43,817 nt of DNA from an uncultured Lachnospiraceae bacterium (GTDB taxonomy: Bacteria > Bacillota > Clostridia > Lachnospirales > Lachnospiraceae). Of the stretch, positions 8,231-21,014 are shown one piece after another (positions within the stretch are counted from its first letter, which is position 1; every line of letters begins with the position of its first letter). A program made the translations under genes and the position numbers. Location: positions 1 through 43,817 of the forward strand of contig CATOJE010000028.1 in assembly GCA_951800145.1 (NCBI GenBank), given 5' to 3'. The notes beneath the pieces are model-generated. The model saw only the letters and a program-made list of their open reading frames with translations, was not told where the DNA came from and searched no databases.

Positions 8231-8450
8231 TTGCAGAATTTCTACAAATCCCTGGTATCAAATTGGTGAAGGAATCAAATGAATCAGGCAGGTAAAAAGT
8301 TACAAGTTAATTGATTTGAAAAAAATATGGGGAAAAAGGTAGAGTTTAATCTCCACTTTACTAATTGGAATTTACTAGAAAATATGGTCGATATATCATA
8401 CAAAAATTGGTTTTTATAGTCGAAATTTCCATATCCGCATTATATCACGC

Positions 8451-8484
8451 CCGGGGCATAAAGTCTACTTTATGCCCCGGTTTT
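8451..8484 (+). terminator. Strong intrinsic terminator upstream of the BTAD gene
   Basis: A perfect 13-bp stem CCGGGGCATAAAG / CTTTATGCCCCGG with a TCTA loop is followed by TTTTG. The nearest upstream plus-strand gene ends more than 2.2 kb away, with its own terminator. This hairpin would therefore stop a transcript that begins within 8107-8450, or act as an attenuator for the operon at 8568. Confidence 0.75.
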
Positions 8485-8567
8485 GTTTCTATAAAAAAAT
8501 ATGTGTTACTGTTTACAGGCAGCTTCCCGACTTGATGGAAAGGCAAGCATAATGATAAGGTGACGTG

Positions 8568-9851
8568 ATGAATAAAGTTCAAAAAAGTGAAGAGCATGTC
8601 CTGCAGATCAAGATGCTGGGCAGCTTTTCCATGGAGTATGACCGGAAACCGATTTCCTTTGAAGGTCTGTACTTCTCCAAATCCATCCAGCTTTTTCTGC
8701 TTCTGCTTTTACATGGGGAAGCAGGAATAAAAAAAGACACGCTGATGGAGTACCTGTACAGACAGGCAAAGGGCCCCAAGGTGAATAATAACCTAAATAA
8801 CATGGTCAGCCGTCTGCGTAAGCAGCTCCAGGAGCTGGGGCTGCCGGAAGAAGACCACATTGAAATAAAGGGCGGGCGCTGCCGGTACGTGAGCAGCAGC
8901 CGGATAAAGGTGGATGTACAGGAGCTGGAGGCCTTTTTAATGAAGGCGGAGGATCCTGAGACAGCCCCCAGGGAGCGGAGAGCCTGTCTTTTGGAGGCGG
9001 TCAGACGGTATCAGGGGGAGTTGCTGCCCAGGCTTTCTCCGGAAACCTGGGTAGAGGCCTGGAGGATGCGCTGTAAAAAGCTTTATGAGGCCGCGCTGAA
9101 TCAGCTGGGGCAGATCTTAAGTGAGGAAGCAGATTTTAAAACCCTTTATCCTCTTTATGCCCAGGCGGCAGGCTGGTATCCTCTGGAGGGCTGGGAGGAG
9201 AAGATAGCCCGGTGTCTGACTGCTATGGGCCAGAAGGAAAGGGCGGCACGGCTTTATCAGGAAACTACACGGCTGTACAGGGAACAGCTGGGGATAGCCC
9301 CCGCGGAACAGACGCAGAAGCGCCAGCGGGAACTGGAAAATAAATTATATGGCTGTCCGAAAAGCCTGGATCTGATCCAGCAGGAGCTTCATGAGGAGAA
9401 AAGGGAGCCGGGAGCGTATTACTTAAGCTTCCCCAGCTTTCTGGACAGCAGCCGGGTTATGGCGCGGTTAATGGAGAGAGAGGGGAAGGAGGCAACGCTT
9501 CTGATATGTACCTTGGAGGAAGGCATTCCGGAAGAGCGGAAAGAAAAGACAGAGAGAGAGACGTCGGGACGTATAGGGGCAGTCCGGACCCCAAAACGGG
9601 AAGGGTGGCTTCGCCGGTCCATATGCAGCAGCCTGCGGCGGGAGGATATCTACACCCGGTACAGCCCCTGCCAATACCTGGCCCTGCTGATGGGAACCGG
9701 CCCGGAGGACGCCTGCGGGATAATATCCAGGATTGACCAGAGATATCAGGAGCTGAGCAAAAGCAAAAAGAAAGAAATCCGCTACGAGATTACCGCTCCG
9801 AAAATGGAACAGGAGAAAAACAGGATATGGGAGAAAAGCAGGAAGCATTGA
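8568..9851 (+). CDS. BTAD-domain (SARP-like) transcriptional regulator with degenerate GGDEF-like C-terminus
   Basis: This is a probable transcriptional regulator of the following surface-protein operon. Residues 10-110 form an OmpR/SARP-type winged-helix domain, starting with the typical LQIKMLGSFSMEYD and containing VNNNLNNMVSRLRKQL. Residues about 115-275 are the helical bacterial transcriptional activation domain, with VDVQELEAF, the helical repeat series and LYREQLGIAPAEQT. The C-terminal third contains LRREDIYTRYSPCQYLALL, which resembles a GGDEF-fold domain lacking the catalytic GGDEF. The ATG at 8568 follows AAGGTGA; a GTG one codon upstream is possible. It overlaps the next small gene by 25 bp, so regulator and operon are probably transcribed together. 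The signal it senses is unknown. Confidence 0.82.
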   Translation: MNKVQKSEEHVLQIKMLGSFSMEYDRKPISFEGLYFSKSIQLFLLLLLHGEAGIKKDTLMEYLYRQAKGPKVNNNLNNMVSRLRKQLQELGLPEEDHIEIKGGRCRYVSSSRIKVDVQELEAFLMKAEDPETAPRERRACLLEAVRRYQGELLPRLSPETWVEAWRMRCKKLYEAALNQLGQILSEEADFKTLYPLYAQAAGWYPLEGWEEKIARCLTAMGQKERAARLYQETTRLYREQLGIAPAEQTQKRQRELENKLYGCPKSLDLIQQELHEEKREPGAYYLSFPSFLDSSRVMARLMEREGKEATLLICTLEEGIPEERKEKTERETSGRIGAVRTPKREGWLRRSICSSLRREDIYTRYSPCQYLALLMGTGPEDACGIISRIDQRYQELSKSKKKEIRYEITAPKMEQEKNRIWEKSRKH

Positions 9852-10042
9852 CGAATAAAGGGCGTTTAGGGACCTTTACGATACAGCTCCACTATCGGGA
9901 GCATGCCACCTGGCAGGGGAAAATCCTGTGGGTGGAGGGGAAGCAGGACAGCCACTTTCGAAGTGCGCTGGAGATGCTGAAGCTGATTGATAGTGCCTTA
10001 GACAAAGCAGAAGGGAAAGAAGAGGAAATAGGAGGAGAGTAA
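9827..10042 (+). CDS. Small conserved-looking protein, partner of the BTAD gene
   Basis: A 71-residue soluble protein with no signal peptide. It contains FTIQLHYREHATWQGKILW followed by FRSALEMLKLIDSAL, a beta-strand pair then a helix. I have the impression that similar short proteins accompany BTAD regulators and surface loci in Lachnospiraceae, but I know of no function. The start ATG at 9827 lies inside the regulator gene, and a TTG at 9848 (after AGGAAG) is an alternative. The stop is one base before the ATG of the giant adhesin gene, so translation is probably coupled. Confidence 0.6.
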   Translation: MGEKQEALTNKGRLGTFTIQLHYREHATWQGKILWVEGKQDSHFRSALEMLKLIDSALDKAEGKEEEIGGE

Positions 10043-10043
10043 G

Positions 10044-13000
10044 ATGTGGAGTAAGATCAAGCCGGGCCTGAAGCGGTGGGTCAGCCGATATCTGGTGGTG
10101 ACCATGATGTTATCCTTTGTGTTTGGCAACTCATATGCCGGTTCTGTCCTTGCCGCGACAGAGGAAGGAAAGAAGGAGGCGGCGACCGCCTCCGACGCCA
10201 TCCGGGACAGCAGGGTAAAGCTGGTGAATAAGGGAAAAGAGGATGTACAGCTTGTGCTGCTGTCAGACAGCGCCGGATATGACGCCGGGGACAGCGTATG
10301 CTTAGAGCTGTACATAAAAAATAACACAAACCAGACCATAACCCATGGCCAGCTGAAATGCAGCGGAGGGAAAATCGCGGAGGGCAGCGCATACTTTGAG
10401 GACCTGAGCCAGCTCTATGAGGAAGAGTCCTGGGCGGAGGATTTTGAGGAGGAGGACTTCCAGCTTCTGGCACTGGAGGATGAACGATTCGCCCAGACAG
10501 GGGAGGAAGCTTCAGAGCAGGAGAAAACCTCCGAAGGGGAGGAAGAATGGGAAGAGGATCCGGAGGATATGGATGACACGCCGGATCACCTGGAGAATCT
10601 GGTCATCCGGCCAGGGCAGAGCTATTATGTGAATTTTTATTACACCATCGATGACGAGGTAAAGGGCATCAAGAGCCAGACCATAAACTTCTCCTTTAAA
10701 GGAAAAACGGAAGAAAAGAAGAATGTATCTGCGAAGGAAACCTTCCGGTATACCATCGGGGCGCTGAACCTTTTGCCGGTGGAATTTGACGGGGAGGGGC
10801 CCTTTTTAACCGGGGAAGAGCATGAGATGGTGCTGGACTTCGATATCGGCGAGCTTCAGGAGATTCTGGAGGAAGCAGAGCTGGAGGCGAGCCATCGGGA
10901 GGAGCCGAAGGAAGAGGCAGAAGAGAAGGAAGAAACCGCAACCGCCCCAGGCGGGGAGACGGCCAGCCCTTCCGATGGCAGACCTGCCAGTCCTTCCCAG
11001 GCAGAGGGAAATACTCCGACAGGGGAAAAGCCATCGTCTGAGAAAAAAACATCATCCGATGGAAAAAGCGGCTCTTCAGGCTATACAGGCTCCAAGGCCA
11101 GCGCCTCCAATGGGTTAAAGGCTACTCCCTCCAATACCTGGGCCCAGTGGGGCGATCCAGATTCCCAGGCTCCGGTGAAAAAGGAGGACAAGCCCCTGAT
11201 CAGCCGGCTAAACTGTCAGGTAGAAACCTATGGAGTGAAGCTGAACGGATTCAAGATCAAAGGCTTTACGGAAGAGGATGATGTGAACTATGGAACCTCC
11301 GTCACCTGTAAGTTCCGGGTAAGCAAGAATACGGCGCCGGGAACCTATTACGGAAAGGTGACCGCCTCCTATAAATATAAAGGGAGAGACTGCAAATCTA
11401 CCCAGGGTTTTCGGATCCAGGTGGCCGGGGAGGGGGAGGTAACCCTGAAGGGGGAGGTAAATGGCACAGAGGTGATTGTCAGCGGTCCGGCAGAATACTT
11501 CCCGGAGGCAGAGGATCTGGAGATCCGGGTGGCTGAGGCAGATGAAGAGCAGCAGCTGCAGGTAATGGAGGCCCTGCAGAAAAAGGCGGAGGAAGAGGGA
11601 ACCCAGATCAAGGATTACCGCGCCTTTGATATCAAGCTGATGGCGGAGGGAGCGGAGACCGAGCCTGGAGGCATGCTGAAGGTGACCTTTAAGAACGTGA
11701 AGCTGGAGGCGGAGGAAGTCCGGACGGCAGCGATGATGCTGGCGGACCAGCCTGACGGGGAGGATGCAGGGCAGGAAGAGGAAGCTCAGGCTCAGGAGGA
11801 AGGCCAGCTCCAGGCTGCGGAAGGCCGTCAGGAGAGCAGCATTCAGGTTTACCATCTGGATGAGGAAACAGTGGAAGTGAATGAGGTGGATACCACCGCG
11901 GAAGGAAACGGGGATGTGGTGACGGCGGAGACGGACCATTTTTCTGTGTATGTGGTGGTGCTGGAGGAAGAAAATTCAGGGCCATACCAGATCGTAGTTC
12001 AGCGATATGTGGAGGTTGGCCGGGAAGGAAATTATACAGATGACGCAATTACTGTAGACAGCGTACGATATGAAAAACGATACCTGGATAGCGAACCAGT
12101 TTCTTTAGGCAGAGAATTTACAGGTGCGAGACTGAATGATTTTACAGAAGAATTAGAGGGTTATAAAGTAGAGCAAATCCAGGTATGCAATATGAATGGG
12201 GAATTGCTGGACACATACCCGAAAAAAGGAGAGAACACACAGGAGGGAGATAATTCACAGCCAGCTACAGAAATTGAAATTCCGATTAATCAGAATGTTA
12301 TGCTGAAGGTATTATATAAGCAATCGTCGACGGAGTATGACAGCGATGTGGTTTTTTATGATTACGATGCAGTCAGCCCTTACGGCAGTAAAGATTCGAA
12401 TGGCAATCTCGTCACTGACACAGGCAATCCAAATAGAGTTTATAATGATGGCTATGACAAAGGCCAATATATTACCAATTCTGAGAATTATTCAAAAAAC
12501 GCAACAAATGGCAGCAGACTGAGTGCGGGGCTGGGGGATGACGTGCCAGTTCAGGCACAGTGCGCTGACGGGCAAGAGAGAACGGTTTATTTAAATGCCA
12601 ATAATACGAACGGGACTTATGCAGGGTATTCCGCTCCAATTATCCGGAGAATTGTTACAGGCCTGGACGGGGAAGATAATCCGATCTACGGGAGCTTTGG
12701 TGGGAGAAAAATATATGATCCAGGATTTTTTACGGATGAAGCTAAGATTGGAAAAAGAATCTATCCTACAGAGGATATCGATACAAAGCTGACATTTGAG
12801 AGAAGGGGAGATTTTCATCAATTAAAATGGGCAGGAGTTCAAGTTAACGGAAGGTGGGAAGGAGCTAGCGCAGACTCAACAAACAATTTTTATCCGTTAG
12901 ATAAACTTCCAGGCGCACAAGGACATTATAGGCCTGGTGAAAAGCAGAAACCCCATAACTGGTTTTTCGGAATGCGCTATACCTTTAATTTTACTGTGGG

Positions 13001-15137
13001 TGATTATACAGGTCCATTAACCTATACCTTTTCCGGTGATGATGATCTATGGGTATTTTTGGATGGCAAGCTGATTTTAGATTTGGGAGGAGAGCATAGC
13101 GCGTTTCCTGATGTATATAACGCAGGCTTTAACATAGGGAAGCCATGGGAGGCGGTTTGGAGAAACGATGTAAATTTATGGTGGTTTTTAAACGATTCGA
13201 GCAGAACCATTGATGGGTATGATGCTCAATTATCGGTAAGTAAAGCAGAAAAACGAAGTGAAAATATGGGAAATCCAGACACGCCGCACCAGATCACAAT
13301 TTTGTATATGGAACGGGGCGGCATCGATTCCAACTGCTCTATGAAATTTGTCATTCCTGGACTGAAGCCGGTAAATGTTGAGCCGATCCGAGGACAGAAA
13401 AGTATTTCTGTAAGAAAGGAATGGGTCGGTGATGATGAGTCTTACCGTCCCAAGGAAGTTACGGTAAAGCTTCAGAAGAAGGTGGGTGCAGGTAATAACG
13501 GTTACGAGGATGTAGGAAAACCGGTGACATTAAGTAAGCCAACATGGTCGTATGAGTGGAAGAATCTGGATAATGGGGAATACCGGGTTGTGGAAGTAGA
13601 TGTTCCTGCTGGTTATCAATCAGCAGTGACATCGGAAAGCAATAAGTCACACTTTATCATAACCAATACACTAACCGATACACAGCGGGTAGAGGTGGAG
13701 AAGAAGTGGGAGGATGGAAATGACCAGGATAAAAACCGGCCGGAATCCGTTACTGTGCAGCTGTATTGGTCTGAAGTGGGAAAAGATTTATGGCATCCAT
13801 TCACAGACCGGAAGATTGAATTAAATGAAACCAATCAATGGAAAGGCGCTTTTGATAATCTGCCCCAATACATGTACCGGAAGGATGGAACAGCCTTTGC
13901 CGTAGATTACATGGTATTTGAAATGAATGGTTCGGTGAATATTTTAGAAAACGGCCATTTACCAGGCAAGAAAGGAGAAAACTGGCCCTATACAGTAACC
14001 TATGAGCGGAGCAGCTCAGCAAGTGGAAGTAAGAATACGACAAATGTGACTGTAACGAATGCATATGCTCCCAAAACCATGTCCCAGACCGTAGAAAAGG
14101 TATGGATTGGGGTGCCTGAAGGCATTCCTGCAAAGGTAACGATTGGATTATACCGCAAGACAGGAAGCAATTATCAATTAGTAAATAATCTGCCTAAAAA
14201 TTCTGCAGGAGAGGATCAGCAAAATCCGGTTACATTTCAGATAGCAGATGCAAAAAAGAATGAGGATGGAAATCGAATCAACAAGTATACATGGGAAAAT
14301 TTACCCGTTTACGATGCAGGAAGCCTTATTGAATATCGAATCTGCGAGATGGAATATGGTGAAAACGGAGAGTTCAGCCCTATCAGTGAGCCGGGCAGGG
14401 GAAACTGGACGGTAGCGTCAGATGGGTATCAGTATCAGATTGGCTATGGGGAGCCTGAGGAAAGGAAGGATCCTGCAACCCAGGTAAACACTTCTGTGAA
14501 AACTACCATCACCAACACCCTTCAGGCCGCCGCCCTGCAGATTAAAAAGCTGGTAAATCCAGACGGGGAGCCGGTTGATTTTAAACACAACTATAAATTC
14601 CTGATCGAGGTAAAGGACGGAGAGAAGGCCTATACGACAGTTGCATTAACGGACGGAGGCATCAGTGAGACGATCATAATCTTCTTCACAAAGGAGGATG
14701 TTTCTAGTGGAAAAACCTTTACCATCCATGAAGCGGTCCCCATGGAATACACTCTGGCAGGAATGGAGTCCGATGCTCCTTCCGGACAATTTAGCTGGGA
14801 TAATACAGAAAAAGCCGGAAGAATTACCTTAAAGCCAGGCAACCACATTACAGTCACGGTTAGGAACACGATGGAGCACAAAAGTTACTTCCACCACACC
14901 GCTTTAGTAACCAACGTGAAACAGCCGCCGGATGGCTCTGGTGAATGGAGTGTGGAGACAGCTCCATTTAAAAAGAATGAATACACAGAGCCCCATGGAG
15001 AAGGAAGCTCCAGCTCCGGCAGAAGCCCGGATCATGGGGGCGGAGGGCCGATGGCGTTTGAAGAACCCTATATGGGGGAGGAACGATTCGGGTTTAGAGA
15101 AAAGGTATTAGATGAGGAGGTGGCGCTGTATGGCTAA
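10044..15137 (+). CDS. Giant secreted fibro-slime / Cna-B repeat adhesin
   Basis: A 1697-residue secreted protein. Residues 1-38 are a Sec signal peptide (basic start, hydrophobic core, VLAA cleavage). Residues 40-265 form a beta-rich region with acidic inserts. Residues 265-370 are a Glu/Ser/Pro/Thr linker. Residues 395-650 form further Ig-like beta domains ending in DHFSVYVVVLEEE. Residues about 760-1110 are a fibro-slime/PA14-like domain (GDDDLWVFLDGKLILDLGG near 997). Residues about 1118-1612 carry four Cna-B-type domains with Lys in V-x-K-x-W and Asn in ITNT/VTNAY/VRNT, the pattern of internal isopeptide bonds. The C-terminus is Gly/Ser-rich and ends DEEVALYG with no LPXTG or membrane segment. 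Bases about 11990-14520 are clearly AT-richer than the flanks. The start at 10044 follows GGAGGAGAG; the stop overlaps the next gene by 8 bp. Confidence 0.85.
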   Translation: MWSKIKPGLKRWVSRYLVVTMMLSFVFGNSYAGSVLAATEEGKKEAATASDAIRDSRVKLVNKGKEDVQLVLLSDSAGYDAGDSVCLELYIKNNTNQTITHGQLKCSGGKIAEGSAYFEDLSQLYEEESWAEDFEEEDFQLLALEDERFAQTGEEASEQEKTSEGEEEWEEDPEDMDDTPDHLENLVIRPGQSYYVNFYYTIDDEVKGIKSQTINFSFKGKTEEKKNVSAKETFRYTIGALNLLPVEFDGEGPFLTGEEHEMVLDFDIGELQEILEEAELEASHREEPKEEAEEKEETATAPGGETASPSDGRPASPSQAEGNTPTGEKPSSEKKTSSDGKSGSSGYTGSKASASNGLKATPSNTWAQWGDPDSQAPVKKEDKPLISRLNCQVETYGVKLNGFKIKGFTEEDDVNYGTSVTCKFRVSKNTAPGTYYGKVTASYKYKGRDCKSTQGFRIQVAGEGEVTLKGEVNGTEVIVSGPAEYFPEAEDLEIRVAEADEEQQLQVMEALQKKAEEEGTQIKDYRAFDIKLMAEGAETEPGGMLKVTFKNVKLEAEEVRTAAMMLADQPDGEDAGQEEEAQAQEEGQLQAAEGRQESSIQVYHLDEETVEVNEVDTTAEGNGDVVTAETDHFSVYVVVLEEENSGPYQIVVQRYVEVGREGNYTDDAITVDSVRYEKRYLDSEPVSLGREFTGARLNDFTEELEGYKVEQIQVCNMNGELLDTYPKKGENTQEGDNSQPATEIEIPINQNVMLKVLYKQSSTEYDSDVVFYDYDAVSPYGSKDSNGNLVTDTGNPNRVYNDGYDKGQYITNSENYSKNATNGSRLSAGLGDDVPVQAQCADGQERTVYLNANNTNGTYAGYSAPIIRRIVTGLDGEDNPIYGSFGGRKIYDPGFFTDEAKIGKRIYPTEDIDTKLTFERRGDFHQLKWAGVQVNGRWEGASADSTNNFYPLDKLPGAQGHYRPGEKQKPHNWFFGMRYTFNFTVGDYTGPLTYTFSGDDDLWVFLDGKLILDLGGEHSAFPDVYNAGFNIGKPWEAVWRNDVNLWWFLNDSSRTIDGYDAQLSVSKAEKRSENMGNPDTPHQITILYMERGGIDSNCSMKFVIPGLKPVNVEPIRGQKSISVRKEWVGDDESYRPKEVTVKLQKKVGAGNNGYEDVGKPVTLSKPTWSYEWKNLDNGEYRVVEVDVPAGYQSAVTSESNKSHFIITNTLTDTQRVEVEKKWEDGNDQDKNRPESVTVQLYWSEVGKDLWHPFTDRKIELNETNQWKGAFDNLPQYMYRKDGTAFAVDYMVFEMNGSVNILENGHLPGKKGENWPYTVTYERSSSASGSKNTTNVTVTNAYAPKTMSQTVEKVWIGVPEGIPAKVTIGLYRKTGSNYQLVNNLPKNSAGEDQQNPVTFQIADAKKNEDGNRINKYTWENLPVYDAGSLIEYRICEMEYGENGEFSPISEPGRGNWTVASDGYQYQIGYGEPEERKDPATQVNTSVKTTITNTLQAAALQIKKLVNPDGEPVDFKHNYKFLIEVKDGEKAYTTVALTDGGISETIIIFFTKEDVSSGKTFTIHEAVPMEYTLAGMESDAPSGQFSWDNTEKAGRITLKPGNHITVTVRNTMEHKSYFHHTALVTNVKQPPDGSGEWSVETAPFKKNEYTEPHGEGSSSSGRSPDHGGGGPMAFEEPYMGEERFGFREKVLDEEVALYG

Positions 15138-15747
15138 GATGGATTTCAAAAAGAATAAGCTTGTGCTAACCATAGCGCTGCTGGCTGCCGCTGCGGTGAT
15201 TGGGAACACTGCAGCTACAGTTCTCCATAAGATGACCCTGGAAAATCCTATCAAGACGCCGTCAGTGACAGGAAAAATTGAAGAACAGCCAGAGATCCTG
15301 GAGCGTGGAGATAAAAAAGTAACCTTTATAAATGAAGGGGAAGCGGATGTATTTATCCGTGCAGCCTATTCGGAAAAATGGACCAGTGGGAACATGATAC
15401 TGCCAAATCCGCCAGGTGTAAGCCCAAAGATCAATTCCGATGACTGGGTTAAGGGAGATGACGGCTGGTACTATTACCGGTATGTGCTTCCCGGCTCTGC
15501 TTCCGGAAAACCGGAGGATAAGCGAAAAACATCATCCTTTATTGAGAAGGTCACATTTGGAACGTTAGATGAGACCTACAAGAAGGCTTCCTACGAAATT
15601 CACGCGGTTATGGAAATCGTCCAGGCCAGCGATGATGTGATCGTGAGTCAGGAGGCGGTGAAGGAGCTGTTTGGGAAAAATATTACTGTGCCAGAGGGAT
15701 GGAATGGAAATAAATACACCTATACCGTCTCATGGCCAGTTCAGTAA
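15130..15747 (+). CDS. TasA/camelysin-like secreted protein 1 (SipW substrate, diverged signal)
   Basis: A 205-residue exported protein of the same layout as its three downstream neighbours. It has a basic start, a hydrophobic core (LTIALLAAAAVIGNTAATVL), NPIKT after the core, then a beta-rich domain containing NEGEADVFIRAAYSEKW and a terminal region with VMEIVQAS. The core lacks the GGTxAY cleavage signature of the others, so this is the most diverged paralogue. I chose the ATG at 15130, seven bases after AGGAGGTGG; the upstream in-frame ATG at 15112 lies before that ribosome site. It overlaps the adhesin stop, so expression is likely coupled. Confidence 0.65.
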   Translation: MAKMDFKKNKLVLTIALLAAAAVIGNTAATVLHKMTLENPIKTPSVTGKIEEQPEILERGDKKVTFINEGEADVFIRAAYSEKWTSGNMILPNPPGVSPKINSDDWVKGDDGWYYYRYVLPGSASGKPEDKRKTSSFIEKVTFGTLDETYKKASYEIHAVMEIVQASDDVIVSQEAVKELFGKNITVPEGWNGNKYTYTVSWPVQ

Positions 15748-15760
15748 GGAGGTGGCAGCT

Positions 15761-16510
15761 TTGGAAGGAAAAGGGATGAGAACGGCTTTAAAGGGAAAGA
15801 AAATGCTGGTGCTGGGGACTGCTGCCGCCGCCTTAATCGGTTTCGGCATCACCTGGGCATATTACAGCAGCAAGCAGGCTCTGGCAAACCCGCTGACCAC
15901 AGCTCACAGCGGTGCGGCCATTGTGGAGGAATATAACCCGGACAGCTCCTTCCTCCCGGGAGAGCTGGTGACGAAAAGAGTTGCCCTCCAGAATACCGGG
16001 AAGATGGATATCTTCCTCCGGGTGGAGGTGATGCCGGAGGAGGGCTGGTATCAGGAAGATGGGAGCGAGATACCAGAGCTTAAGACCCTTAAGGTAGAGA
16101 AGGGATGGACCGACGCGTGGGGCGAGCCAGATATCCCGGAGAATGCCAGTCAGCCCATACTGCCTGAGACGGCGTATGGCGGCACAGAGGGGGCGGAATG
16201 GACAAAGGCTTATAAGGATGCAAATGGAAAATACTACCGGTATTATAAAAGGATTCTTCCGGCCGGGGAGATGACGGCGGATATTCTGGAAAGCATCAAG
16301 CTGAGCCCGGATGTTTCGAATGACCGGCATGCCGCGGATTACAGTGACAAGCACTACCGCCTCACCTTCCATGCAGAGGCAGTCCCTGTGGAGGACCATG
16401 GAGGCCAGCCAGGAGTCCAAGCCTCCTGGAACATGTCCGTATCCTTAAACAATGACGGCAGCTTAACCTGGACCCAGGGGACATCCCGGTCCGGCAGCCA
16501 GGCTGATTGA
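15761..16510 (+). CDS. TasA/camelysin-like secreted protein 2 (SipW substrate)
   Basis: A 249-residue exported protein with a SipW-type signal: basic start, core MLVLGTAAAALIGFGITWAYY, then ANPLTTAHSGAAIVEEYNP. The mature part has the TasA-family feature of a proline-glycine turn followed by KRVALQNTGKMDIFLRVEV, and an aromatic YYRYYKRILPAGE segment before the last strands. The best start is TTG at 15761, five bases after AAGGAGGTGG. An ATG at 15776 is an alternative, and the longer frame upstream would overlap the previous gene without a ribosome site. It lies 13 bp after gene 1 and 18 bp before gene 3. Confidence 0.75.
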   Translation: MEGKGMRTALKGKKMLVLGTAAAALIGFGITWAYYSSKQALANPLTTAHSGAAIVEEYNPDSSFLPGELVTKRVALQNTGKMDIFLRVEVMPEEGWYQEDGSEIPELKTLKVEKGWTDAWGEPDIPENASQPILPETAYGGTEGAEWTKAYKDANGKYYRYYKRILPAGEMTADILESIKLSPDVSNDRHAADYSDKHYRLTFHAEAVPVEDHGGQPGVQASWNMSVSLNNDGSLTWTQGTSRSGSQAD

Positions 16511-16528
16511 AGATAAGGAGGAAGCAGG

Positions 16529-17491
16529 ATGAAACGGATCATAAAAATAATCCCCTTAGGGGGAATCCTGGCAGTGGCCGGCATCGGCGGGACCTTCGCG
16601 TACTTCAATCAGACCCACACCAAAACCAATGAGTTTACCACCGGAACCTACGACACAGTGCTGGTGGAGGACTTCCGTCCGGAGGACGGGGAGAACTGGA
16701 AGCCGGGGGCCACAGTGAATAAGGATGTGACTGTAAAGAATGAGGGCACCCTCCCAGTGGTGGTCCGGGTGAAGTTCCAGGAAACCTGGGTCAGACGGTC
16801 GGACAGCTTTAAGCTGTACGATGTGGACACCACGCTGCAGAAGGAGAAAACCGGGCTGGGGGCCACGCCAGACGCCAGAAATAAATTTGAAAATGTCTAC
16901 CAGCAAGATCCCGGGGATGGAAATGCGGGAACCGAAATCGACGATTCGGTGGTACATAAAATCATGGATCCGGATCAGCTGTGGGTCTATAACCCGGCGG
17001 ACGGCTACTACTATTACAAGCAGATACTTCCCGGAAAGCAGGAGGGGGGAGAAGCCCCGGAGACCGCAAGGATCCTGGATGGGGTAAGGCTGGATGAGAA
17101 TATCGACATGGGCGCCTACATTGAGCGGAAGTACTATGCATGCACCGAGAGCGAGGAGCCGCCGGCAAAGGACAGCAGCGACTGGGTAGAGTTTGAGAAG
17201 GACGAGACCACAGCGAACGGCTATGTGACCACCGCAGAGATGGCGGAGATTGTCCAGAGACAAGGAAAGAAAATCACCTTTTTAAAGGCCTCCCCGGAGC
17301 TTAAGGGGGAGGAGCTTGGAGGATACCGGGACGCAGACTATACCCTTCGGGTGACTGCCCAGACCGTCCAGGCAACCGACGGGGCCGTGGCAGGATTATT
17401 CGGCGACATCGGGACATTTAAGGCGCTGGGATGCCAGTGGGAGCTGATGAGTGAGGATACCCTGTATCAGGGGGACGCCGCCCGGCCGTAG
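16529..17491 (+). CDS. TasA/camelysin-like secreted protein 3 (SipW substrate)
   Basis: A 320-residue exported protein. The signal is basic, with core GGILAVAGIGGTFAYFNQTH; GGTFAYF is the classic SipW-processing signature, and TNEFTTGTYDTVLVEDF follows. The mature domain shows KPGATVNKDVTVKNEGTLPV, VRVKFQETW and a YYYYKQILPGKQ segment shared with the paralogues, then a C-terminal VTAQTVQATDGAV. ATG at 16529 follows AAGGAGGAAG. It is GC-rich (57% in 16801-16860 by hand count), in contrast to the next paralogue. Confidence 0.8.
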   Translation: MKRIIKIIPLGGILAVAGIGGTFAYFNQTHTKTNEFTTGTYDTVLVEDFRPEDGENWKPGATVNKDVTVKNEGTLPVVVRVKFQETWVRRSDSFKLYDVDTTLQKEKTGLGATPDARNKFENVYQQDPGDGNAGTEIDDSVVHKIMDPDQLWVYNPADGYYYYKQILPGKQEGGEAPETARILDGVRLDENIDMGAYIERKYYACTESEEPPAKDSSDWVEFEKDETTANGYVTTAEMAEIVQRQGKKITFLKASPELKGEELGGYRDADYTLRVTAQTVQATDGAVAGLFGDIGTFKALGCQWELMSEDTLYQGDAARP

Positions 17492-17622
17492 GAGAAAGGC
17501 TTCCGGAGCGCATCCGGCAGAATGTTTAACCAGTCTATTTATGCCCTGATTTTTTGAAAACATGGCAGATAGAAGAATAAATGAGCAACAAAGATAACGA
17601 GACAAAGAAGGGAGAATGAGAA
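17492..17622 (+). other. 131-bp gap before TasA-like gene 4
   Basis: It contains a small hairpin CCGGA/TCCGG (about 17503-17517) without a T-run. A stretch TTTATGCCCTGATTTTTTGA around 17537-17556 resembles the core of the hairpin element at 19191-19239. No clear promoter was found. It is the widest gap among the TasA-like genes, so separate regulation or RNA processing here is possible. Confidence 0.35.
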
Positions 17623-18585
17623 ATGAAGTTGAATAAGAAGGCAATCGCAGGAGCAGGTTTAGGCGCGTTGGCACTGGTAGGGGGGACATTTGCGTATTAT
17701 AGTCAGACAGCAACCCTGGATAACCCGTTAAAGACAGGCAGCCATGTGGAGTCATTAGTTGAGGAATTTACTCCTCCGTCCGATGACCAGTTTTTAAAGC
17801 CAGGCCAAACATGGGATAAGGTGGTAGGCGCGGAAAACACCGGCGATTATCCAGTGCTGGTAAGGATTAAGATGGAAGAGAAATGGAATTATACCGGTGA
17901 AACGAATGCATACCAGACCATTCTCAGCAGTAATCAGGAAGCATTTAATAAGGGAAAAGGCGATGGCAATGGCTTTAAAGACGGGATCTTTACTGCAGAT
18001 CAGACATCACAAATCGAGACGGTAGATGGAGAGCAAGTGGACATTGGTGATAAAAATGGCTTGACAGAAAATGATAAAACCGTTGTCTATAAAAATTTAA
18101 ACCTTACAGATGGATGGATCGACGGAGGTGATGGCTACTGGTATTGGAACGGAGTGCTGGAAGCGAAACCGAAGGACGGTACAGCCAACCCGAAATCAAA
18201 AACATCCAAGCTTATGGATAAGCTGATCCTGGCAACAAATGTTGACCTTGGCCTTTATGAGACAACAGAGTACTATGCCTTTGCGGCAGACGAAGCCAGT
18301 ATAAAAGAAACAGACTGGCAAGCCTTAGGGACGCAGGATATCAATGATATCGCTAAAACGATTCCGGAAAATCAGAAATTATTCCGTAAGGCAGAATCCA
18401 AGCTTAGTGATGGTAAGAAGGGATATGCAGATTCTAACTATACTTTGACCATTACCTCAGAATTTGTTCAGGCAACCAAGGATGCAGTAGCAGATAGCTG
18501 GAAAGCAGCAGATGGAACACTATTTGACATTACAAAATTAACCAATGTTAAAACAGATACAGATGGTGTAAATCTGATCAACTAG
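17623..18585 (+). CDS. TasA/camelysin-like secreted protein 4, AT-rich paralogue (candidate major fibre subunit)
   Basis: A 320-residue exported protein with the cleanest SipW signal of the set: LGALALVGGTFAYYSQTATL followed by DNPLKTG and SLVEEFTPP. The mature part has LKPGQTWDKVVGAENTGDYP and VRIKMEEKW, then YWYWNGVLEAKP and a C-terminal TSEFVQATKDAV, all shared with genes 2 and 3. ATG at 17623 follows GGGAG. Its composition is strikingly AT-rich (30% GC in 18061-18120 by hand count) between GC-rich neighbours. The regular, Thr/Asn/Gln/Lys-rich sequence and separate leader make it a candidate for the abundant structural subunit; that role is inference. Confidence 0.8.
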   Translation: MKLNKKAIAGAGLGALALVGGTFAYYSQTATLDNPLKTGSHVESLVEEFTPPSDDQFLKPGQTWDKVVGAENTGDYPVLVRIKMEEKWNYTGETNAYQTILSSNQEAFNKGKGDGNGFKDGIFTADQTSQIETVDGEQVDIGDKNGLTENDKTVVYKNLNLTDGWIDGGDGYWYWNGVLEAKPKDGTANPKSKTSKLMDKLILATNVDLGLYETTEYYAFAADEASIKETDWQALGTQDINDIAKTIPENQKLFRKAESKLSDGKKGYADSNYTLTITSEFVQATKDAVADSWKAADGTLFDITKLTNVKTDTDGVNLIN

Positions 18586-18616
18586 AAAGCACAGCACGAA
18601 AGGCTAACCCAAACCA

Positions 18617-19174
18617 ATGAAACGGATCCAAAAAACCCTGAACATCCTCTCCTGGCCCGTGTACCTGTGCATCATTGCCTACCTGCTCATCGCGGCCCCC
18701 TTACTGGCCGGCTACCGGCCGGTGGTGGTGCTCAGCGGAAGTATGGAGCCCACCTATCACGTGGCCAGCGTTATATATTACAAGCAGGCCCCCTTTGAGC
18801 AGATCTCCGAGGGGGACGCAATCACCTACCAGGCCGGGGAGGATTCCCTGGTGACCCACCGGGTGGCGGAGAAGCTGGAGGTCACCAGACAGTTTATCAC
18901 CAAGGGCGATGCCAACCCCACCCAGGATCCCAATCCGGTATCCTATGAAAACGTGGTGGGGAAGGCGCTTCCCTTCTCCATCCCCTACGCAGGCTATTTT
19001 GTGGATTTCGGCAAGAAGCCGGCAGTGATTGGGGTGATGGCCCTGATACTGATAGGAGGAATGGCGGCAGACTGGCTGGTGAAGTCCGAGAGTGGAGAAA
19101 CGCCGGATAAAGAAGCAGAGAAAAAGAATGCCGGTCCGGACAGGAAAGAAGATATTCCCGGGAAGAAGGCCTGA
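18617..19174 (+). CDS. sipW: SipW-type (ER-type) signal peptidase I
   Basis: A 185-residue membrane serine protease of family S26B that cleaves the signal peptides of TasA-like proteins. Transmembrane segments lie at about residues 12-31 and 133-151. The catalytic serine is in VLSGSMEPT (Ser42). The base is a histidine in VTHRV (His81) instead of the lysine of ordinary bacterial SPases, and the conserved aspartate is in TKGDANPTQD (Asp98). These are the hallmarks of SipW/archaeal-type enzymes. A charged C-terminal tail follows the second membrane segment. The ribosome site (GAAAGG) is weaker than those of its substrates, which fits with an enzyme needed in lower amounts. Confidence 0.9.
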   Translation: MKRIQKTLNILSWPVYLCIIAYLLIAAPLLAGYRPVVVLSGSMEPTYHVASVIYYKQAPFEQISEGDAITYQAGEDSLVTHRVAEKLEVTRQFITKGDANPTQDPNPVSYENVVGKALPFSIPYAGYFVDFGKKPAVIGVMALILIGGMAADWLVKSESGETPDKEAEKKNAGPDRKEDIPGKKA

Positions 19175-19190
19175 GTCAGGAAAGCATAAT

Positions 19191-19239
19191 GTGCTCTCGG
19201 AATCTCTTTGTGCCTGATTTTGTGAGATTCCGGGAGCAC
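19191..19239 (+). repeat. 16-bp-stem hairpin between sipW and TasA-like gene 5
   Basis: GTGCTCTCGGAATCTC (19191-19206) pairs with GAGATTCCGGGAGCAC (19224-19239) with one G-U pair, around a 17-nt loop containing TGCCTGATTTTG. There is no T-run after it, so it is not a standard terminator. A similar sequence occurs at 36615-36656 before ftsW. It may be a dispersed element or an mRNA-processing or stability hairpin. Confidence 0.6.
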
Positions 19240-19263
19240 ATCATATTGACAGGGAGAACAAAT

Positions 19264-20937
19264 ATGAGGAAGAAAAAGAGAGTAATAATCGCAGGCCTGG
19301 CGGCTGCGGCAGCTGCTGCAATGATCGGAGGCACCTGGGCAGTATGGACGCAGCAGATTCAGGCCGGAAATGAATACCAGATCGCCAAATACAGCACCCG
19401 CCTGGAGGAGAATTTCGACCCGCCAGAGAACTGGCAGCCGGGAATCAGCGTGGAGAAGGCAGTCTGGGTGACCAATGACAGCCCCCAGGGCCACGGGGCC
19501 CCCGTCTTGGCAAAGGTAGAGCTGAGCCAGCGATGGATCCGCCAGGAGAATGTATACATGGATACCTTAGACCAGGCCACCGGGGAGATAAAAAGTGTTC
19601 CGGTGGAGCCTCTGGCAGGGGAACCGCTTCCTCTGATCTTCCAGCCGGAGGGAGGGGAGTGCCAGTTTGCTGCGGTTCCCCGGTTCAACCAGTCTGCTGT
19701 GGTCGCCTTAGCCTCCGGGAGGAATCAGGAGCCTGGCCTGCGGCTGGACATCCCCAGTGTCAATTCCATCCAGGAGGCAGAGGGGAAGTGGCTGTTGGTT
19801 AATGAGAGCCCGGCCCTGACGGGAAACTATGTGTTCTACTATATGGGCGTTCTCCAGCCAGGGGAGGCCAGCCCCCGCCTGCTGGAAAGCGTGGCCATGA
19901 ATCCCCTTCTGGAAAATACGGTAAGCGGAAGCTATGGCTATTACGAAAAGCAGGAGGACGGCTACCATTTGATCACCATGGAGACGAAAAACTCCGCCAA
20001 TGGCTATGACAGCTGCCGCTACACCTTAGATGTAACTGCCACCACAGTGCAGAATACAAAAGCAGCTGTGGAGAAGGTGTTCGGCTCCAACAGCATTGAC
20101 CAGACGGTGGTGTCCTACCTGACGGCCATGGCGGATTCAGGTATCGTGGAGTCTGAGCTGACCAAGCGCCTCTCCTTCGAGCGGTCAGAGGGCCGGTTCG
20201 TCTATACCCCATATCGCGATCAGGAAGGCGCAGAGGAGGGGAACTGGTTTATGAGCTTTACTGACATGATGCCGGGCGGCGTTTACCGGGATAAGCTTCA
20301 GATTGAAAATAACAGCTCCAGAGATTTCCGGGTTTATATGCAGGTACTTCCCCGCGCTCAGGATGCCCTGCGGGATGAGCTTCTGAGCATGATTCAGATG
20401 AGCGTATGGCACGACGGGACGCTGCTGTATCAGGGCAATGCCTCCGGCTCTGCCCTGGTGACGGATGAGGGGCTGCAGCGTCTGGTTTATCTGGGACGCT
20501 ACGATGCCCGTTCCTTGGGAGAGATAACCGTGGAGCTGAAAATCGATGAGGAGCTGGCCTTAGACGAGACCGGGACCTGTAAATATGCGGATCTGCTGAC
20601 AAAGATTGACTGGGAGTTTATGGTGACTGAACTGGATTCCCCAGGCGGACCGGGAGGCGGAGGCACCAGAGATCCGGGAAATCCGGGCCGCTCCACCACA
20701 GTGATTACCGACGATCCGGTTCCCTTATCGGTTATCGATGACGGGGATGTACCCTTAAGCGACGGGATGATCATCGAGGATGAGGCGGTGCCCTTAGGGG
20801 CGATGCCTAAGACAGGAGATACCACCCCCTGGATACCTTTGACCGTGACCTTCCTGGTAAGCGGAGGATTCCTTGGGGGAATGATGCTGTTAAGGCGGAA
20901 GGAGCAGGAAAAGGAAAGCGGGAAAATGAAAAATTGA
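19264..20937 (+). CDS. TasA-like surface protein 5 with SipW signal and MPKTG sorting signal
   Basis: A 557-residue cell-wall-anchored member of the set. The N-terminus has a SipW-type signal: basic start, AGLAAAAAAAMIGGTWAVW, then YSTRLEENFDPPENWQPG. The body contains two TasA-like halves, the second starting near residue 275 and containing FMSFTDMMPGGVYRDKLQI and NSSRDFRVYM. Residues about 460-513 form a Gly/Pro-rich and acidic stalk. The C-terminus has MPKTGD (about 514-519), a membrane segment and a short charged tail, which is a sortase signal with Met for Leu. No sortase gene is in the window. I chose ATG 19264 after AGGGAGA; an ATG at 19189 would start inside the hairpin element. Confidence 0.82.
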   Translation: MRKKKRVIIAGLAAAAAAAMIGGTWAVWTQQIQAGNEYQIAKYSTRLEENFDPPENWQPGISVEKAVWVTNDSPQGHGAPVLAKVELSQRWIRQENVYMDTLDQATGEIKSVPVEPLAGEPLPLIFQPEGGECQFAAVPRFNQSAVVALASGRNQEPGLRLDIPSVNSIQEAEGKWLLVNESPALTGNYVFYYMGVLQPGEASPRLLESVAMNPLLENTVSGSYGYYEKQEDGYHLITMETKNSANGYDSCRYTLDVTATTVQNTKAAVEKVFGSNSIDQTVVSYLTAMADSGIVESELTKRLSFERSEGRFVYTPYRDQEGAEEGNWFMSFTDMMPGGVYRDKLQIENNSSRDFRVYMQVLPRAQDALRDELLSMIQMSVWHDGTLLYQGNASGSALVTDEGLQRLVYLGRYDARSLGEITVELKIDEELALDETGTCKYADLLTKIDWEFMVTELDSPGGPGGGGTRDPGNPGRSTTVITDDPVPLSVIDDGDVPLSDGMIIEDEAVPLGAMPKTGDTTPWIPLTVTFLVSGGFLGGMMLLRRKEQEKESGKMKN

Positions 20938-20940
20938 AAT

Positions 20941-21014
20941 GCATAAAGATGCAGGCTGAGACCCAGAATCGTGGATGGATTCATCGAAGAGGGGTTTCAG
21001 CCTGCATCTTATGC
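20941..21014. repeat. Long inverted repeat between convergent genes
   Basis: GCATAAAGATGCAGGCTGAG at 20941-20960 (continuing to 20964) pairs with the complement at 20992-21014, giving about 23 bp with one bulge and one mismatch or G-U pair. A second small stem GAATC/GATTC lies in the loop. It starts 4 bp after the TasA-like gene 5 stop and lies before the convergent ATPase gene. There is no T-run. It may act as a bidirectional transcript end or 3' stabiliser. Confidence 0.65.

Follow-up and report, generated by a model that had tools for sequence, protein, structure and literature searches.

A candidate wall-anchored TasA/BsaA-type fibre with an exchangeable adhesin in a SipW-type gene cluster of an uncultured Lachnospiraceae bacterium

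What kind of surface structure is encoded by a gene cluster that combines one SipW-type signal peptidase with five paralogous secreted proteins and a very large adhesin? The question is raised by a contig of an uncultured Lachnospiraceae bacterium (GenBank assembly GCA_951800145.1, contig CATOJE010000028.1), whose whole length of 43,817 nucleotides is referred to here as the window (contig C28 in our numbering, from an assembly of 148 contigs). Nine closely spaced long open reading frames (ORFs) form a single plus-strand run at 8565–20937, in the order regulator (REG), small protein (SML), adhesin (ADH), subunits S1, S2, S3 and S4, SipW-type peptidase and S5. A preliminary description had proposed this gene set as a SipW-type fibre system with five paralogous substrates and their peptidase. 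The genes are present as described, as closely spaced long ORFs with family matches, and the TIGR04090 and TIGR02228 matches together with a subunit tree support the proposed kinship. We consider it reasonably likely that the cluster encodes a TasA/BsaA-type surface fibre that is built of several subunits, anchored in the wall and tipped by an exchangeable adhesin; its assembly is probably by donor-strand exchange. Comparison among genomes carries the architecture of this proposal: gene set, order, orthology, coupling module, exchange of adhesin heads and splitting of the anchor. New here are an adhesin module common to varied heads, a distant, simpler and duplicated version of the locus, and the anchor half of S5 as a separate gene in two genomes.

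Five position-specific subunits and their signal peptidase

Four of the five subunits exceeded the cut-off (60 bits) of the NCBIfam model for BsaA-family SipW-dependent biofilm matrix proteins (TIGR04090): S2 (15761–16510, 85.0 bits), S3 (16529–17491, 182.8 bits), S4 (17623–18585, 145.9 bits) and S5 (19264–20937, 154.6 bits). S1 (15130–15747), encoded directly 3' of the adhesin gene, scored below it (41.4 bits). These are the only five matches at E ≤ 0.001 in the genome. The model for the SipW-type signal peptide (TIGR04088, cut-off 19 bits) was exceeded by S3 (37.4 bits) and S4 (27.6 bits), with S5 (17.2 bits) and S2 (13.7 bits) below the threshold and S1 giving no hit. Judging from the sequence, the most likely starts of S1 (ATG at 15130), S2 (TTG at 15761, preceded by a ribosome site, or ATG at 15776) and S5 (ATG at 19264) all lie 3' of the first possible start codon in the respective ORF.

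The peptidase gene (18617–19174, plus strand) lies between S4 and S5 and codes for a Ser/His-type enzyme (TIGR02228, 112.8 bits; cut-off 51.85) whose Ser42 (SGSMEP) and His81 (THRV) are invariant in 8/8 orthologues. It scored 99.4 bits against the Bacillus SipW equivalog (NF046067), under the cut-off of 190. Because all five TIGR04090 matches of the genome fall in the cluster and this is its sole TIGR02228 match over the cut-off, the enzyme appears to be dedicated to S1–S5, within the limits of an assembly that is 86% complete.

We compared 11 cluster loci, window included. Searching named genomes with S4 yielded seven, including those of [Clostridium] citroniae WAL-17108 (locus L031) and [Clostridium] clostridioforme AGR2157 (L034), species now assigned to Enterocloster. 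The others are in genome G002 (L017), which belongs to the same genus as the window, and in G025 (L027) and G248 (L028), from other genera of the family. The complete order S1-S2-S3-S4-SipW-S5 was found in eight of the 11 (window, L027, L028, L031, L034, L035, L036 and L037); L037 has two additional S5-type genes, and L017 and L032, cut by contig ends, are consistent as far as visible. The preliminary description had made its case hinge on the genes occurring together elsewhere. They do, and the adhesin, which it had counted as part of the locus, is conserved with them. At the level of sequence comparison, a six-gene order with position-specific orthology kept across genera makes the locus more than a product of chance.

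The subunit tree (52 rows) supported clades of S1 (100/98), S4 (99/96) and S5 (100/99) and, weakly, a group of S3 (71/28). S2 required two changes on the tree, and a single S2 group was not rejected (approximately unbiased test, p 0.35). The S1 query in the tree and in the N-terminal alignment began at the second residue (15133) and that of S2 at 15770, slightly inside the likely start. Mapping the five position labels on the tree took four changes, the minimum possible, whereas shuffled labels needed 31.9 on average. A recent tandem array would not look like this: each paralogue is an old lineage that has stayed at its own position, which suggests that the five have different roles.

The cluster is rare. 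TIGR04090 was matched at E ≤ 1e-15 in five of 250 genomes of the family, three of which have the cluster; within the genus, two of 11 genomes have matches over the cut-off and six at E ≤ 0.001. An order-level search with a profile of S3 and S4 (A1) found 4 of 392 genomes at E ≤ 1e-15, our own included, the other matches (G312, G372 and G529) being short and N-terminal. This scattered occurrence points to loss or to horizontal transfer. Elsewhere in the genus there are different SipW-type loci (L018, L019, L020 and L021), with weaker TIGR04090 matches and a SipW-type peptidase, L019 also having a BTAD regulator and a small protein; the loci of G003, G004, G005 and G007, same-genus genomes with TIGR04090 under the cut-off, were mapped with window proteins only. 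Behind the main cluster of G025 (L027:13669–17565), we also observed a second SipW-type peptidase, more SipW-type proteins and possible sorting-signal proteins.

A common C-terminal module on varied adhesins

ADH (10044–15137, plus strand) is a protein of 1697 amino acids with a signal peptide that, by eye, is of the ordinary Sec type, a fibro-slime/PA14-like region and Cna_B domains. Pfam Cna_B matched three stretches (79.4 bits); the Fibro_Slime model (TIGR02148) gave 42.1 bits, slightly short of its cut-off of 45, and 50.4 bits for the [Clostridium] citroniae orthologue. The Pfam/NCBIfam scan found no LPXTG match in ADH, and no LPXTG was seen at the C-terminus of nine aligned adhesins. We rejected a frameshift with loss of an LPXTG motif, as the orthologous adhesins are likewise anchorless and end just before S1 or overlap its start.

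The constant part of these adhesins is a C-terminal region of about 130 residues, designated the coupling module (14529–14924, plus strand; tail YFHHTALVTN in the window). It was defined by alignment A5, which holds nine adhesins from eight loci with rows from G000, G025 and G248 included, and by co-occurrence with the subunit cluster. The invariant columns are K7, F24, S46, E68, P71, E73, Y74, G104, N113, F121, H122 and N129. K7, E68 and N113 occupy the places of the isopeptide Lys, Glu and Asn of CnaB domains. The stretch that follows N113, [YF]FHxxxxVxN, lies past the expected last strand of a CnaB-like domain and is almost terminal in L027 and L028 (15–19 residues from the protein end).

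The heads joined to this module differ among loci. For example, Cna_B and fibro-slime regions are found in the window and L031, VWA and DUF7604 in L027 and L037, and SdrD_B in L035; L028 encodes two adhesins, one with a SpaA head and the other without a match over the cut-off. This Pfam scan covered the adhesins of the window, L027, L028 (two), L031, L035 and L037, leaving aside those of L034, L036, G002 and G865 (the last scanned by NCBIfam only).

The module with its conserved tail is present in 12 of 12 adhesins from cluster-bearing genomes (nine in A5, one in G002 and two in G865). A search of 250 family genomes was positive in exactly G000, G025 and G248, all of which bear the cluster. 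Among 12 further genomes, G002 alone was positive and the other 11 negative, and the module was not found in G063 and G174, which have one TIGR04090 match each. In a class-level sample it was detected in two of 391 genomes, our own and G865, which belongs to another family. The independent evidence consists of G002, G865 and the absences.

Both G865 modules keep K7, E68, N113, F121 and N129 and do not keep H122. They belong to a locus (L066:8204–18576) with two tandem sets of adhesin, S1-like protein, LPXTG anchor, SipW-type peptidase and BsaA-type subunit. By comparison of its genes, this is a distant, duplicated and simpler version of the window cluster, reached via the module search. The comparison identifies the module as a mark of the adhesins of SipW fibre loci, and G865 is where a locus predicted in this way was found; the same sequence signature can serve for finding such adhesins, as it did in this distant family. 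An unrelated adhesin that happens to lie beside a matrix operon was considered and rejected.

Subunit fold, wall anchor and assembly of the putative fibre

The preliminary description had referred to the Bacillus fibres as amyloid-like. This does not agree with published accounts, which, in the parts available to us, describe TasA fibres as non-amyloid and donor-strand exchanged (PMC9674648; PMC10151520), with F29, I32 and F39 as the donor-strand residues touching the next subunits (PMC9674648). For the present cluster, an amyloid fibre in the narrow sense was likewise rejected. The subunit N-termini (51 rows, the L017 S1 fragment being left out) have an aromatic residue at the F29 position in 44 rows (F/Y/W), V/I in six and K in one, and the F39 position is hydrophobic in 51/51. 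An Asn two residues before the F39 position is invariant in the subunits, as are three later residues (Glu, Lys and Asn). This N-terminal pattern agrees with donor-strand exchange. Furthermore, HHalign aligned the S3/S4 profile with TasA over 51 N-terminal residues (E 2.4e-4, probability 44%), and S3 scored 26 bits against the TasA equivalog (NF046066, cut-off 450) over residues 4–77, with no hit at E ≤ 1 for S1, S2, S4 and S5. Searches of PDB sequences with S4 and with the A1 profile returned no TasA (best E 1.3 and 0.14, unrelated proteins).

Structure prediction, which the preliminary description had named as a check of the TasA fold, pointed to TasA for one subunit and not, among the matches listed, for another. 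AlphaFold2 models of S4 (pLDDT 74.7, pTM 0.69; 15 sequences) and S5 (pLDDT 65.3, pTM 0.53; 10 sequences) rest on few sequences. Foldseek matched the S5 model to TasA entries 5of2, 5of1 (two chains) and 8aur at probability 1.00 (E 2.3e-4 to 1.7e-3), the only rows of that probability among the matches listed. For the S4 model, there was no TasA in the best 50 of 632 matches and nothing at E ≤ 0.001. Taken together, the predicted models give moderate support for a TasA fold, from S5 and not from S4.

The lack of a clear structural match for S4 could also suit a reading in which the five proteins are separate surface enzymes or adhesins that share a secretion route and form no filament. S3 likewise matches a Pfam family named for the metallo-endopeptidase camelysin (Peptidase_M73, 43.2 bits). 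However, BsaA, for which the subunit family is named, is described as a polymer-forming protein in the available text of its report (PMC7395162), two positions of the N-terminal TasA strand recur in the subunits, and the fixed order of five position-locked lineages suggests a single assembly. Such a set of independent proteins seems to us highly improbable.

S5 is the proposed base of the fibre. It consists of a SipW-type subunit domain, a second beta domain (RLSFERSEG...GNWFMSFTDMMPGG..., approximate limits 20167–20640) and a wall-sorting signal in which the motif MPKTGD (20803–20820) is followed by a hydrophobic segment and a basic tail. Orthologues have LPKTGD, LPETGD, APVTGD, VPATGD and similar motifs, and the NF033073 model (cut-off 48) gave 43.1 bits for the whole protein and 48.6 for its C-terminal part. 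In L028, S5 is split into two adjacent genes, one for an anchorless SipW-type subunit and the other for a second-domain protein with PPKTGD and a signal peptide of the ordinary kind. In L027, S5 consists of the subunit alone, and a separate protein encoded further along has LVQTGD and a domain that looks similar by eye. The anchors of L066 are also separate genes (55.4 and 56.6 bits with the S5 profile). As an independent gene, in L028 and L066, the second domain has its own signal peptide and an LPXTG-like motif. Loci with separate parts show, by eye, a division of signal peptides, SipW-type on the beta subunits and ordinary on both adhesin and anchor. The subunit and the anchor domain work together, we propose, because they are fused in some genomes and encoded by separate genes in others. 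In L036, S5 is directly followed by an ORF of 2216 amino acids (L036:13250–19897) whose end, TPMTGDERP, resembles a sorting signal; it may encode another large surface protein of that locus.

Four sortases are encoded in the genome (contigs C13, C26, C31 and C118), none of them on the window contig. Together with the isopeptide-type residues of the Cna_B domains and the LPXTG-like signal, which recall sortase-built pili, they could point to a pilus whose subunits are covalently linked by a pilin sortase. The cluster, however, has no pilin sortase gene, and S5 alone among the nine proteins scanned has an LPXTG-type match. We rejected such a polymer and give it next to no credence.

The sorting signal also bears on whether the cluster encodes a biofilm matrix of the BsaA kind, in which S3 and S4 would be free extracellular polymers linking cells and the adhesin and other subunits separate matrix or wall proteins. 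S2–S5 exceed the BsaA family cut-off, and BsaA polymers are reported to be found mainly outside cells, to arise in E. coli from BsaA by itself and to be independent of sortase (PMC7395162). However, S5 joins a subunit domain to a sorting signal, whereas in BsaA, according to the same report, no LPXTG-like sequence was seen (PMC7395162). Moreover, the module of the adhesin keeps company with the S1 type encoded after it and with the anchor domain, and does so in a distant family as well. We regard a matrix of free polymers as unlikely.

In the wall-anchored fibre that we favour, the BTAD regulator would switch the operon, as its position suggests. S1–S5 would be exported and their SipW-type signal peptides cut by the cluster peptidase, a role in keeping with its family and linkage. 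Once the peptide is removed, the N-terminal strand thus set free would fill in the beta-sandwich of the following subunit, as it does in TasA; this step is proposed because F29 and F39, two of the three named donor-strand residues of TasA, match hydrophobic positions with equal spacing. S3 and S4 would form the shaft, and S1 and S2 would be adaptors beside the adhesin. Codon bias is divided on the shaft: S3 or S4 is the top gene in four of six genomes and S4 is second in L037, but the window gives no support. The adhesin would be coupled to the fibre by its constant isopeptide-type module together with the tail; S1 would be the simplest binding partner, a contact suggested by their association across loci. 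S5, with its second domain and sorting signal, would tie the shaft to the wall, presumably through one of the four sortases encoded elsewhere in the genome.

More tentatively, the system could be a Gram-positive counterpart of chaperone-usher pili that works without chaperone or usher, ordered as adhesin-S1-S2-S3/S4-S5-wall. The tail of the adhesin would then serve as the first donor strand or as a docking strand, and the subunits would follow one another along the fibre as their genes do. We hold this stricter version to be possible and somewhat doubtful. It yields testable predictions of which protein contacts which and by which strand.

Several observations weigh against a wall-anchored fibre or soften the evidence for it. 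The fibre polymer is predicted here from the genes. The TasA matches of the S5 model stand at E-value ranks 12, 28, 29 and 49 with a target TM of 0.33–0.35, the S4 model finds none in the best 50 of 632 matches, and the profile likeness to TasA spans about 50 N-terminal residues only (probabilities 44% and 32%), with the I32 position not conserved in the 51 N-termini. MPKTG deviates from a perfect LPXTG, and codon bias in the window ranks S4 lowest of eight genes, as measured with a weak reference set of 13 ORFs near rpsG (a search for rplB drew a blank in our assembly and in G002). Alignment A5 contains G000, G025 and G248, so their module matches are expected, and the adhesin of G002 sits at the edge of a separate contig, where its adjacency to the subunits is not established. 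L033 retains S4-SipW-S5, but its S3 is a mere fragment and S1 and S2 went undetected. In G865, three of the four subunits were scanned with TIGR04090 and one is over the cut-off (49.8, 41.3 and 67.8 bits); the peptidase of the first set is an ORF of only 126 amino acids, perhaps truncated.

Flanking genes and kinship with described systems

REG (8565–9851, plus strand; 428 amino acids) is a transcription regulator of the BTAD type (Pfam BTAD, 39.2 bits; cut-off 22.1) with a weak winged-helix match under the Pfam cut-off. Its C-terminus (9615–9794) has a weak GGDEF-like match, far under the cut-off of either model (NF038266, E 0.0036; TIGR00254, E 0.15), and lacks the GGDEF motif. The combination of BTAD with a degenerate GGDEF part may be a clue to the signal that REG receives. 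Homologues lie 5' of the cluster in L027, L031, L034 and L037, as in the window, and none was detected in L028; the remaining loci end too near the cluster to judge.

A terminator-like hairpin (8451–8480, 13 pairs with a T-rich tail) lies 85 nucleotides 5' of REG, behind promoter-like sites at 8316–8345 and 8371–8399, and two hairpins precede the homologous regulator of L019. As a general feature, a leader terminator was rejected, since there is none near the regulator in L027, L031, L034 and L037. Terminator-like sites of the region show no excess (13 found, 15.1 in shuffles), and no common hairpin was seen by eye in the S3–S4 gap (62–134 nucleotides in nine loci measured). An inverted repeat seen by eye 3' of S5 (20946–21010; AAGATGCAGGCTGAGACCC ... 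GGGTTTCAGCCTGCATCTT), absent from the terminator scan list, is a possible operon end.

SML (9827–10042, plus strand; 71 amino acids) matched no Pfam or NCBIfam family over the cut-off. It aligns with the C-terminal half of longer proteins (145–184 amino acids) at other loci, two of which gave no Pfam match. The stretches TWQG and FRSALE..KL.DSA are conserved in its kin, which lie near SipW loci in five cases, aligned for four (window 9827–10042; L037:2354–2821; L027:5324–5806; L035:15169–15720; L019:3140–3574).

The preliminary description knew of no system of this composition. For the full set our search agrees: in the open-licence literature, screened mostly by titles and abstracts, we found no account of a SipW system that combines five subunits with an adhesin and a subunit carrying an anchor, which is weak evidence of absence. 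However, it had overlooked that the family is already named for BsaA in NCBIfam and that Clostridium perfringens sipW-bsaABCRSD is the nearest described system. As far as its report is available to us, BsaA forms very stable filaments whose release needs SipW and not the adjacent sortase, and mutants in bsaB and bsaC have fragile pellicles (PMC7395162). Both systems have a peptidase gene by BsaA-family subunits (TIGR04090), several secreted proteins per operon and a clostridial host. The window cluster departs from that operon, as reported, in several respects: its paralogues number five and keep a fixed order, its regulator is of the BTAD type where the operon has a two-component system, one subunit carries a wall-sorting signal, and there is a large adhesin whose C-terminal module is conserved. 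BsaB, BsaC and BsaD, presented as putative secreted proteins in the same text (PMC7395162), may correspond to adhesin, adaptor or anchor, in the light of the simpler five-gene form of G865.

The resemblance to tapA-sipW-tasA of Bacillus subtilis lies in the SipW-type peptidase, in N-termini that align with the TasA donor strand and in the match of the S5 model to TasA. In the parts consulted of its descriptions, by contrast, that system has one main subunit and the initiator TapA, with no mention of an adhesin or sortase-anchored subunit (PMC9674648; PMC10151520). One main subunit, as stated for Bacillus in the preliminary description, is too simple a picture, since B. cereus TasA and CalY co-assemble (PMC13082335). 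Such hetero-filaments, which contain several kinds of subunit and are said to form independently of sortase, come close to the fibre proposed here, whereas the three B. cereus proteins include the chaperone-like CapP and, in the text available, form no five-subunit set with an adhesin and an anchored subunit (PMC13082335).

With its donor-strand-exchanged subunits and tip adhesin, the proposed fibre would work like chaperone-usher pili, as outlined in the accessible text of a published account (PMC10903470). The cluster does not belong to that class, as its nine proteins, to which the search was confined, include no chaperone or usher match. Sortase-assembled Gram-positive pili, too, are attached to the wall and carry VWA or CnaB domains in the adhesin at their tip; unlike them, the window cluster has an LPXTG-type match in S5 alone and no sortase on its contig. 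TasA/BsaA-type fibres have so far been described as biofilm matrix polymers with one or two main subunits. If the proposed architecture is true, the TasA/BsaA family would represent a true adhesive pilus class of gut clostridia, including [Clostridium] clostridioforme and [Clostridium] citroniae.

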